Source: Mesoflavibacter sp. (GTDB lineage Bacteria; Pseudomonadota; Alphaproteobacteria; UBA8366; Aestuariispiraceae). From it: a stretch of DNA of 64,000 nucleotides. Position 1 is the stretch's first letter, and each line of letters opens with the position of its first letter. The position numbers and the translations under genes are program-made. The DNA lies in NCBI GenBank assembly GCA_017792345.1, contig CP051228.1:4618148-4682147 (forward strand), in the 5' to 3' direction. Below, one piece after another: positions 16,924 to 27,133 of this stretch. Under the pieces are notes generated by a model. It was not told the origin of the DNA, did no database searches, and saw only the letters and a list, made by a program, of their open reading frames with translations.

Positions 16924-16970
16924 ACACAAGATATAGAATTGTCCCTTGCGCGCGCCACCATATCTATTAT
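16924..16970 (+). promoter_or_regulatory. Paired NrdR-like boxes upstream of nrdB
   Basis: Two 16-bp sites, ACACAAGATATAGAAT (16924-16939) and CCACCATATCTATTAT (16955-16970), match 13/16 and 11/16 of the palindromic NrdR-box consensus ACACWATATATWGTGT as I recall it. Their starts are 31 bp apart, about three helical turns, the usual arrangement for the nucleotide-sensing repressor NrdR. They end 44 bp before the nrdB ATG. Confidence 0.7.
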
Positions 16971-21549: not shown

Positions 21550-21662
21550 CGCGCGCCGCTCCCCTGTTCTGTTGATTCGACGCATTATCCGAATGCACCG
21601 CCCGAATGGCAACGCGAGGCCGTTCGGAAGTGCTGTTCCGCTTGGACATTGTACCGCCCGAC

Positions 21663-21678
21663 ATACAAGATATTGTGG
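21663..21678 (+). promoter_or_regulatory. Solitary NrdR-like box between the SDR gene and gcrA
   Basis: ATACAAGATATTGTGG matches 13/16 of the NrdR-box consensus recalled above. No second site is visible 31-32 bp to either side, unlike the three paired sites in the window. It may be a chance match or an auxiliary site. Confidence 0.4.
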
Positions 21679-21693
21679 CTGGAAACTGACCCC

Positions 21694-21909
21694 GATTCGC
21701 GGCGGATTCCCGGGTCCCGGCGCGATTCACGCCTGACACTTCTCTTCAGGCCGCCGATTCACGGGTTGACCGGTGCTTGGAATCGCGGCGCGCCAAAGAG
21801 AATCCGGCCCGAATCGATTTTTCGCTTGAGAGTCCGAAATACGCCGTATATTGTGCCCGCACACACCGACGACACAAGATATATTGGGTTTCCGCACGGA
21901 GTCTGACTC
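21694..21909. promoter_or_regulatory. Cluster of ten GANTC (CcrM-type) sites upstream of gcrA
   Basis: Within the 461-bp gene-free stretch between the SDR gene and gcrA, GANTC occurs at 21694, 21705, 21724, 21756, 21780, 21800, 21811, 21830, 21899 and 21905, with one more at 21574. About one is expected per 256 bp by chance. Triplets 21694/21705/21724 and 21800/21811/21830 have identical 11+19 bp spacing. A possible promoter (TTGAGA 21826-21831, TATATT 21847-21852) lies inside the cluster. The rest of the stretch (21550-21660 and 21910-22010) shows no gene or other clear signal. Confidence 0.75.
21841..21887 (+). promoter_or_regulatory. Paired NrdR-like boxes upstream of gcrA
   Basis: ACGCCGTATATTGTGC (21841-21856, 12/16) and ACACAAGATATATTGG (21872-21887, 13/16) match the NrdR-box consensus, with starts 31 bp apart, the same geometry as at nrdB and nrdA. 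The first box covers a possible -10 element (TATATT). The next gene on this strand is gcrA, 124 bp beyond the second box. Confidence 0.65.
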
Positions 21910-22010: not shown

Positions 22011-22343
22011 ATGGATTGGACGGACGAGCGGGTCACCCTCCTCAAGGGAATGTGGACCAACGGCTACACCGCGCGGCAGATCGCGGAGAAACTCGGCGGG
22101 GTCACGCGCAACGCCGTGATCGGCAAGGCGCACCGCCTCGGCCTCTCCTCGCGTCCGACGCAGGTCAAGCGGCACACGCCGCTGCCGATCCCGAATGTCG
22201 TCGAGCGGCATTGCCAATGGCCGATCGGTCATCCGGGTTCCGATGATTTCCATTTCTGCGGCAAGAACGCGGTGCCGGGGAAACCCTATTGCGAAAAGCA
22301 TTGCTCCGTCGCCTACCGTCGTAAGGACGACAACGCCGCCTAA
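22011..22343 (+). CDS. gcrA: Cell-cycle transcription factor GcrA
   Basis: GcrA is an alphaproteobacterial regulator that binds sigma70-RNA polymerase and CcrM-methylated GANTC promoters to drive S-phase genes. At 110 residues this is a compact member. The N-terminal DNA-binding region is diagnostic (MDWTDERVTLLKGMWTNG, ARQIAEKLGGVTRNAVIGKA, HRLGLSSRP). A Cys/His-rich C-terminal part (CQWPIGHPG, FHFCGKNAVPGKPYCEKHC) forms the polymerase-interacting domain. SD AGGAG lies 10 nt before the ATG. The open frame continues 78 codons upstream, but that part spans the promoter region and is not coding. The promoter has a dense GANTC cluster and NrdR-like boxes. Confidence 0.95.
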   Translation: MDWTDERVTLLKGMWTNGYTARQIAEKLGGVTRNAVIGKAHRLGLSSRPTQVKRHTPLPIPNVVERHCQWPIGHPGSDDFHFCGKNAVPGKPYCEKHCSVAYRRKDDNAA

Positions 22344-23546: not shown

Positions 23547-23574
23547 TTGACACGGACTCTCACTTCGCTATATC
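23547..23574 (+). promoter_or_regulatory. Probable sigma70 promoter of nrdA with an internal GANTC site
   Basis: TTGACA (23547-23552) and TATATC (23569-23574) are separated by 16 bp. A GACTC site (23555-23559) falls in the spacer, another GAGTC is at 23521-23525, and the first NrdR box covers the -10. The leader to the nrdA start is about 210 nt. Confidence 0.6.
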
Positions 23575-23612
23575 TTGTGTCCCGCAGCGAAACGAGCCGC
23601 TATATTGTGGGT
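23565..23612 (+). promoter_or_regulatory. Paired NrdR-like boxes upstream of nrdA
   Basis: TCGCTATATCTTGTGT (23565-23580, 13/16) and CCGCTATATTGTGGGT (23597-23612, 11/16) match the NrdR-box consensus, with starts 32 bp apart. They overlap and follow the -10 of the probable nrdA promoter, a repressing position. Confidence 0.75.
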
Positions 23613-23622
23613 GAAAAACAAG

Positions 23623-23659
23623 TTATCCACAGACAATTCGGTCCACAGGCTGTGAATAT
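23623..23659 (+). promoter_or_regulatory. DnaA-box pair in the nrdA leader
   Basis: TTATCCACA (23623-23631) is a perfect DnaA box, and TGTGAATAT (23651-23659) matches 8/9 of the reverse complement. DnaA sites are known in the Escherichia coli nrdAB promoter, so replication-linked control is plausible. Both lie downstream of the NrdR boxes, in the untranslated leader. Confidence 0.55.
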
Positions 23660-25774: not shown

Positions 25775-25801
25775 CGGCTTGAACGGTCCATTTCAAAACG
25801 C

Positions 25802-25833
25802 AAAAAGCTCCCGCAAATGCGGGAGCTTTTTTT
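25802..25833. terminator. Bidirectional intrinsic terminator between nrdA and the ornithine aminotransferase gene
   Basis: Perfect 8-bp stem GCTCCCGC / GCGGGAGC with AAAT loop, flanked by AAAAA and TTTTTTT, so it can terminate on both strands. It lies 27 bp after the nrdA stop. Confidence 0.92.
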
Positions 25834-25835
25834 GC

Positions 25836-25911
25836 GCTCCTGCGAAAGCAGGAGCCTTCGGCGGTCCGCCGCCAATGTCGGATTAGAGACGGTTCCTGCT
25901 TTCGCAGGAAC
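25836..25911. repeat. Inverted pair of REP-like palindromes
   Basis: GCTCCTGC-GAAA-GCAGGAGC (25836-25855) and GTTCCTGC-TTTC-GCAGGAAC (25892-25911) are two hairpins in opposite orientation, separated by 36 bp that contain a smaller GGCGG/CCGCC inverted repeat. The architecture resembles REP/BIME elements that occur in 3' intergenic regions. It lies between two converging genes. Confidence 0.6.
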
Positions 25912-25924
25912 ACATCCCAGAACC

Positions 25925-27133
25925 TTAGCCCGTCAGAACGGAATTGATCCGTTCCAGGGCCCAATCGACTTCGTCACGGCTGACGGTCAGCGGCGGGGCG
26001 AAGCGGATCGTGTGTTCATGGGTCTCTTTAGCGAGCACGCCCTTGTCCTTGAGCCCGTAACAGTATTTGCGAGCGCCTCCGGCCTCCGGATGAAACTCGA
26101 CCGCCAGCATCAGGCCGCGGCCGCGAACTTCCTTGATCGCGTTGTTGCGGATGCCCTTCAGTTCTTCCAGGAAATAGGCGCCCTGTTTCTCGGAGTTCTC
26201 GATCATGCCCTCTTCGACCAGGACCTTCAGCGCCTCGCGCGCGATCGCGCAGGCCAGCGGGTTGCCGCCGAACGTGCTGCCATGCTGGCCAGGCTGCAGA
26301 ACGCCCAGAACCTCGGAATTCGAAAGCACGGCCGAGATCGGGTAGAACCCGCCGGACAGCGCCTTGCCGACGAGGGTCAGATCCGCCTCTACGCCTTCAT
26401 GTTCCTCGGCCAGCAGTTTGCCGGTCCGGCCCAGCCCGGTCTGAATTTCATCCAGGATCAGGGTGACATTGTGCCGGGTGCAAAGCTCCCGCGCCGCCCG
26501 CAGATACCCGTTCGGCGGGATGATCACCCCGGCCTCGCCCTGGATCGGCTCGACCAGGAAGGCGACGGTATTCGGCGTGATCGCCGCTTCCAGCGCCTCT
26601 GCATCGCCAAAGGGAACGACCTTGAAGCCCGGCGCGAAGGGGCCGAAATTCTTGCGCGCGCTGGGATCGGTCGAGAAACCGACGATGCTGAGCGTACGGC
26701 CGTGGAAGTTGTCGCGGCAGACGATGATCTCCGCCTTGTCCTCCGGCACGCCCTTCACTTCATAGCCCCATTTGCGCACGCATTTGATCGCGCTCTCGAC
26801 CGCCTCGGCGCCGCTGTTCATCGGTAGGACTTTCGACGAGTTGGTCAGCGCGCAAATCTCTTCATAGAAGGGCGCAAGCTGGTCATTGCGGAAGGCGCGC
26901 GACGTCAGGGTCAGTTTGCTGGCCTGTTCCATCATCGCCTTGAAGATGCGCGGATGGCAGTGGCCCTGGTTGACCGCCGAATAAGCGGCCAGACAATCGA
27001 GATATTTCTTTCCGTCGACATCCCAGACCCAGCAGCCCTCCCCCTTCGTCAGGATGACGTCGAGCGGCTTGTAGTTATGGGCGCCGAGTTCGGATTCGAC
27101 GGCGAGGAAATCGGTGGAGGCGATGGCGTTCAT
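25925..27133 (-). CDS. rocD: Ornithine aminotransferase
   Basis: This class III PLP aminotransferase converts ornithine and 2-oxoglutarate to glutamate-5-semialdehyde and glutamate. The 402-residue product has the PLP-binding [17 protein letters not shown] and the Schiff-base lysine in [19 protein letters not shown]-terminal [20 protein letters not shown] is characteristic of RocD rather than of acetylornithine transaminases. It follows the arginase gene by 13 bp on the same strand, and together they form the arginine to ornithine to glutamate-semialdehyde route. A divergent Lrp-type gene upstream of arginase is the probable regulator. Confidence 0.94.

Follow-up and report, generated by a model that had tools for sequence, protein, structure and literature searches.

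Upstream of gcrA, in the stretch of 64,000 nucleotides that was analyzed as a whole (hereafter, the window), GANTC sites are packed into a short region of a genome in which this pentamer is otherwise sparse, and the question raised by this locus is what such a concentration is for. The original prediction read it as a possible methylation-state sensor that controls gcrA itself, with a response graded by many sites rather than set by one. The comparative analysis reported here points to a composite arrangement, in which the GANTC cluster is combined with a predicted promoter and with putative operators for NrdR, a repressor that responds to DNA building blocks and acts on ribonucleotide reductase genes. 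The gene in question (window 22011-22343, plus strand) encodes a GcrA cell cycle regulator of 110 aa (PF07750, E = 1.5e-38) that matches 7ye1_G, a GcrA chain of solved structure, in both of its regions, and is present in a single copy, at 4.64 Mb of a genome consisting of one contig of 4,907,657 bp.

The GANTC cluster and its conservation

All ten GANTC sites originally reported within 216 bp are present. Eight of these form the main group (21694-21834; starts at 21694, 21705, 21724, 21756, 21780, 21800, 21811 and 21830), the individual members of which are kept in a fraction of 0.4 to 1.0 of five congeners, and the two sites farther downstream (21899-21909; starts at 21899 and 21905) are less conserved (0.2 and 0.6 of the five, respectively). 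The ten starts span positions -317 to -106 relative to the gcrA start codon at 22011; an eleventh site is found at 21574. The density had been judged against one expected site per 256 bp, which overstates the true background: a sample of 800 kb, or 16% of this genome, contains 1,563 GANTC (1.95 per kb), and the pentamer is strongly avoided in the window, with 122 occurrences where dinucleotide shuffles average 350. The cluster nevertheless remains far above background. With the Poisson rate taken from the first 400 kb of the sample, the chance that 216 bp contain ten sites is 2e-11, or about 5e-6 when scaled to the genome, and the maximum for any 216-bp stretch away from the gcrA region, in the sample and the window, is five sites.

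Comparison with ordinary intergenic DNA, proposed as a check on the cluster, sets it apart. In the sample, under a crude open reading frame cover, the GANTC rate is only slightly higher in non-coding than in coding DNA (2.51 versus 1.90 per kb). Of the 303 non-coding segments defined by this cover, the one with the most GANTC contains six sites in 303 bp; nothing like the cluster is thus seen in the non-coding part of the sample. That next richest segment (L120:13987-14289 of the own genome, G000, at ~4.004 Mb) lies ~15 kb from nrdR. Six GANTC also occur in a segment at ~1.757 Mb (L111:16988-17375), near what looks like an mnmG/gidA gene; because it is close to parB, this segment is near the likely origin. 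Separately, one sampled region (L113, 2.24-2.26 Mb) has a G+C content of 47.5%, compared with 60-66% in the rest of the sample, and perhaps represents acquired DNA.

The duplicated triplet of sites spaced by 11 and 19 bp, another element of the original prediction, is exact. When ten sites were placed randomly, a duplicate of this type appeared in 1.25% of the trials for adjacent triplets and in 4.0% for any triplets spanning at most 60 bp. The promoter-proximal triplet is retained, as 11+19 or 11+20, in five of the six genus genomes, and the distal 11+19 triplet in two of the six. Support for the proposed spacing by whole helical turns is modest, with p = 0.012 at 10.5 bp in the own genome and, among the congeners, 0.142 at locus L085 and below 0.05 in the other four; because sites are shared across the genus, its genomes do not count as independent, and the phasing is suggestive rather than decisive. 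We set aside an inverted repeat pairing sites 1-2 with sites 6-7, which is largely a consequence of the equal spacing of near-palindromic sites and has arms that differ in most congeners.

Conservation in close relatives, the other check that had been proposed, is evident, with 8 to 10 sites present in all five other genus genomes searched. Within 350 bp upstream of gcrA, the own genome and the five congeners carry 10, 10, 10, 9, 8 and 10 GANTC, and eight other genomes of the family carry 4, 6, 5, 2, 5, 2, 4 and 4. Mean retention per window site across the five congeners is 0.74, compared with 0.14 for 248 control 5-mers from the same region (p = 8e-8), and six of the ten sites are retained in at least 0.8 of the congeners, in upstream regions that are 51-60% identical between the more distant members of the genus and 80-86% identical within two closer groups. 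Class-wide, we used 134 non-redundant alphaproteobacterial gcrA upstream regions (400 bp; 15 of 149 sequences were removed as redundant, L001-L003 as duplicates of family genomes, and L045 and L052 for their short upstream sequence). GANTC enrichment is not a hallmark of the class, the mean across these regions being 2.16 versus 1.50 in shuffles. At least four sites occur in 25 of them (8.95 in shuffles) and at least seven in eight (0.10 in shuffles), five of these eight coming from the genus. The GANTC cluster is real, under selection and largely specific to this lineage; weaker versions of it recur elsewhere.

Predicted promoter and NrdR boxes at gcrA

By consensus match alone, the gcrA core promoter is predicted at 21826-21854 (plus strand), where TTGAGA (21826-21831) and TATTGT (21849-21854) are separated by a 17-bp spacer. 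The GANTC at 21830 overlaps the predicted -35 hexamer. In the alignment, the best-kept blocks besides GANTC are the core promoter and AT-rich palindromes such as ACAAGATATTGTG, and palindromes of this kind also precede the nearby ribonucleotide reductase gene. NrdR is encoded in the genome (TIGR00244, 185 bits versus a cut-off of 124.65).

To locate NrdR-type boxes, a 16-bp matrix was trained on the regions upstream of nrdZ, as we call the 661-aa ribonucleotide reductase of the window (PF02867; 14 genomes), and of nrdJ, a class II ribonucleotide reductase of ~1,250 aa (PF08471; 13 genomes), leaving out L167, which lies at a contig end. The matrix was started from four 16-mers, of which two were modelled on observed boxes and one resembled a gcrA box; because such seeds carry a risk of circularity, it was rerun with two generic seeds and with the own genus left out. 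The matrix places a predicted box B (21841-21856; score 11.3) over the -10 hexamer and a predicted box C (21872-21887; score 17.0) 31 bp downstream of B. At this offset, about three helical turns, the pair scores 28.3, or 28.2 without the own genus in training. Box B is weak and, because it overlaps the -10 element, part of its conservation may be that of the promoter.

A predicted distal box A (21663-21678; score 19.4) lies beyond the GANTC cluster as seen from gcrA and is present in all six genus genomes; for context, only two of 799,400 sampled positions score 16 or higher. Box A was not seen in the eight other family genomes, and no partner box was found 31 bp from it. Across the genus, boxes A and B are 178, 179, 190, 201, 201 and 200 bp apart, equivalent to 16.95 to 19.14 turns of 10.5 bp; with about three independent lengths among these, the whole-turn spacing is weak evidence for a loop between them.

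Among all pairs at offsets of 30-33 in the 800 kb and the window, the top scores are those at nrdB (32.0; PF00268, untrained), gcrA (28.3), nrdZ (26.7; trained) and an HNH gene (25.3). In the rerun, which used generic seeds and left out the own genus, these became 31.1, 28.2, 25.1 and 25.0, leaving the ranking unchanged. In all 14 family genomes, the gcrA region scores above 19.3, which marks the 99.9th percentile among 3,160 own-genome windows. At L085, the top pair is not over the promoter, and the promoter pair there scores 20.0; the top pairs of L093 and L094 are shifted with respect to the promoter pair.

Several observations concern the neighboring genes and other loci. The nrdB pair (window 16924-16970, offset 31) precedes the gene for the ribonucleotide reductase small chain, which starts at ~17014, and serves as an untrained positive control. 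In the nrdZ promoter region (window 23565-23631), the paired boxes, with an offset of 32, are located at 23565 and 23597, and the sole perfect DnaA box of the window, TTATCCACA, occupies 23623-23631. In the genus, nrdZ adjoins gcrA; in the other family genomes, it is located elsewhere. The pair at L107:19381-19427 (G000, ~759.4 kb) lies upstream of a minus-strand HNH endonuclease gene, a possible further target. A second, divergent GcrA-like open frame, with 48% identity over residues 2-104, is found at L097 (G005:C61), in a family genome with 7% contamination. An RNA element at the cluster was rejected: a search of the 18-26 kb portion of the window gave five matches, each of them near 25.8 kb and none reaching the gathering score. 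These sub-threshold Rfam matches (25778-25947, both strands; Leu_leader and others), located after nrdZ, probably reflect a terminator-like inverted repeat.

The gcrA boxes share their motif with those at nrdB and nrdZ of the same genome and resemble the NrdR-repressed ribonucleotide reductase promoters described in PMC12051234 in that two near-palindromic 16-bp boxes with a 15-bp spacer lie over a predicted promoter. Unlike in those promoters, the predicted target at gcrA is a cell-cycle regulator rather than an enzyme of dNTP synthesis, and the region has an extra distal box, with the GANTC cluster between the boxes (PMC12051234).

Box pairs of this type extend well beyond the family. A pair scoring at least 20 is present in 56 of the 134 gcrA upstream regions, compared with 0.27 expected from dinucleotide shuffles, and in 44 of the 121 regions from outside the family. 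At this score, offset 31 is found in 41 regions, 32 in 16, 29 in 12, and 33 and 19 in 10 each; each of the remaining offsets from 18 to 59 accounts for at most eight. Offsets 31 and 32 correspond to spacers of 15 and 16 bp, and the measured spacer optimum for NrdR is 15-17 bp (PMC12051234). Against a different null, the other windows of the same loci, which are mostly coding DNA (the dinucleotide shuffle is the stricter, composition control), a pair above the 99% level was found in 38 of 78 regions in a first scan of 80 loci (L045 and L052, with too little upstream sequence, were left out) and in 29 of 60 in a class-wide draw, for which 192 genomes were searched, 124 had a match and 60 of these were taken. 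About half of the gcrA regions had no significant pair (40 of 78 and 31 of 60, respectively), among them all five Thalassospira loci and all three loci titled Kordiimonas. A pair scoring 25.4 lies upstream of gcrA at L226, whose product is the closest in the class sample to the GcrA of Caulobacter (46 of the first 51 residues). The position of GANTC relative to the box pair has a common peak, at -11, within the family only; outside the family, no single offset of GANTC from the pair has a count above 4.

A proposed composite control region and its alternatives

On balance, we lean toward the view that gcrA has a composite control region, formed by the GANTC cluster, the predicted promoter and the NrdR-type operators, which would be tuned by both the methylation state and the dNTP pool. 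CcrM would methylate the sites of the cluster, and the fully methylated gcrA promoter would be less active, as reported in Agrobacterium tumefaciens. NrdR with bound dATP would occupy boxes B and C, over the predicted -10 element and start, and block RNA polymerase, such that an ample dNTP supply would lower the transcription of gcrA along with that of the ribonucleotide reductase genes. Possibly, box A would be brought to boxes B and C by a loop that spans the GANTC cluster. We put at about even the chances of the broader proposition that NrdR also controls gcrA in much of Alphaproteobacteria, with dATP directly setting the amount of GcrA; in the genus, the boxes bracket the ten-site cluster at near whole-turn spacing, and the state of the putative loop could depend on methylation.

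The methylation component has a precedent. The genome encodes one CcrM-like methylase, the single PF01555 match, which also has a RAMA domain; its best NCBIfam model is CcrM (E = 2.6e-189), with a score of 628 bits that falls under the curated cut-off of 830. In A. tumefaciens, six GANTC lie within 250 bp upstream of gcrA, and a reporter of this promoter (PG) is weaker with active CcrM, in Escherichia coli as well (PMC11514494); the authors propose that replication, through transient hemimethylation, activates gcrA. The two systems are alike in the strong over-representation of GANTC directly upstream of gcrA, in encoding a CcrM-like methylase and in the proposed methylation feedback on gcrA (PMC11514494). 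They differ in that ten sites in 216 bp are present here compared with six in 250 bp there, in the late replication of the locus studied here, and in the nrd genes, which the main text of PMC11514494 does not mention (0 occurrences). Because a methylation-sensitive, GANTC-rich gcrA promoter has been published for A. tumefaciens, the sensor idea, though plausible, cannot be called new. Counts of GANTC upstream of cell-cycle genes had been given in an earlier comparative study, from which its authors drew no conclusion on control (PMC2877005).

Chromosomal position bears on how such a sensor could work. In all three family genomes that are single contigs (G000, the own genome; G012; and G002), gcrA is located at 83, 78 and 79%, respectively, of the distance from parB to the antipode, and the GC skew of the own genome places the terminus near 4.3 Mb and a skew switch near 1.9 Mb. 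The gcrA locus replicates late. A long hemimethylated phase is therefore unlikely; the phase would be brief if CcrM activity falls at the close of S phase, and CcrM of Caulobacter is described in PMC11514494 as acting at its very end. Under the same condition, the gcrA promoter would be fully methylated during most of S phase. Of the original prediction, then, the methylation-sensitive control of gcrA stands as plausible, given the kept cluster, the CcrM-like gene and the A. tumefaciens precedent; late replication complicates it, and the NrdR-type operators had been overlooked.

A possible, if rather doubtful, alternative is feedback by GcrA and CcrM without NrdR, whereby GcrA and sigma70 RNA polymerase on the methylated cluster would control GcrA's own promoter, the NrdR-like boxes being mere promoter elements. 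GcrA is described as binding methylated GANTC at promoters (PMC7987155), the sites are helically phased in most congeners, and the core promoter with GANTC on its -35 hexamer (TTGAGANTC...CGTATATTGTG) is found in 10 of the 14 family genomes. The GcrA/CcrM-dependent promoters of Caulobacter and Brevundimonas similarly have GANTC at the core promoter (PMC7987155); the ten sites seen here set the present locus apart from them. However, YGAKTCK, the extended form of GANTC proposed for GcrA, albeit not found in Brevundimonas (PMC7987155), fits just two of the ten sites present here, the one on the -35 hexamer not among them. Furthermore, the methylation effect in A. tumefaciens is also seen in E. 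coli, from which the authors infer independence from alphaproteobacterial regulators (PMC11514494), and the spike of box pairs at 31 bp would be left unexplained.

It is unlikely that the paired boxes bind, instead of NrdR, another factor with shared targets, for example, a regulator of DNA precursor and cell-cycle genes. The assignment to NrdR relies on resemblance and on the target genes, with a matrix seeded from an NrdR consensus, which leaves room for this alternative. Against it, the motif occurs at nrdZ, nrdJ and nrdB, which are ribonucleotide reductase genes of three different kinds, the offset of the boxes fits NrdR, and NrdR is encoded in the genome.

Still less probable is that the cluster serves the chromosome rather than transcription, whether as an origin, as a segregation site or by titrating CcrM or GcrA. 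The number and phasing of the sites do seem to go beyond the needs of one promoter; however, the cluster stays beside gcrA even where the upstream flanking gene differs (L001, L002 or L003 versus the window). A replication origin at the cluster was rejected because dnaA (1.60 Mb), parB (1.76 Mb) and the skew switch (~1.9 Mb) all lie far from gcrA (4.64 Mb). Finally, an accident of base composition or drift, to which the slightly denser GANTC in non-coding DNA and the sampling of 16% of the genome might be thought to lend weight, is highly improbable given the genome-scaled probability of about 5e-6 and the retention of the sites, against that of the control 5-mers, in the congeners.

With the composite control region as the preferred reading, the cluster appears to be a conserved control region of a kind already known in another species, and the predicted NrdR operators would be its new part.

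NrdR, gcrA and a possible dNTP signal

The NrdR regulon has been described as one of deoxyribonucleotide synthesis (PMC5343134), a description outside which gcrA, a cell-cycle regulator, falls. Our full-text searches of open-access literature yielded no report of NrdR acting on gcrA, and the link is absent from the sections of PMC12186491, PMC5343134, PMC4989314, PMC3840689, PMC10483419 and PMC2500167 available to us. The new part of the claim is a cell-cycle gene as a predicted target of NrdR.

A Caulobacter study of 2025 reports that replication starts later when dNTPs are raised, an effect independent of CtrA whose mechanism the authors call undefined (PMC12186491); the word GcrA is absent from its main text. 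In the same study, deletion of nrdR led to wider spreading on soft agar, additive with the effect of fssC, which the authors attribute to more dNTPs (PMC12186491). This phenotype is the opposite of that predicted by a simple brake in which NrdR represses gcrA. If NrdR represses gcrA in Caulobacter, its loss should raise gcrA, and the NrdR-gcrA link therefore cannot be the whole cause of the dNTP-dependent delay.

The putative class-wide link between NrdR and gcrA is the part of this work that merits experiment. If true, a cell-cycle gene would join a regulon described as that of deoxyribonucleotide synthesis. Control of gcrA by NrdR, if it occurs in many Alphaproteobacteria, would amount to a direct, testable wire from the dNTP level to a master cell-cycle regulator, at a type of gcrA promoter that, in one relative, A. 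tumefaciens, also responds to methylation.
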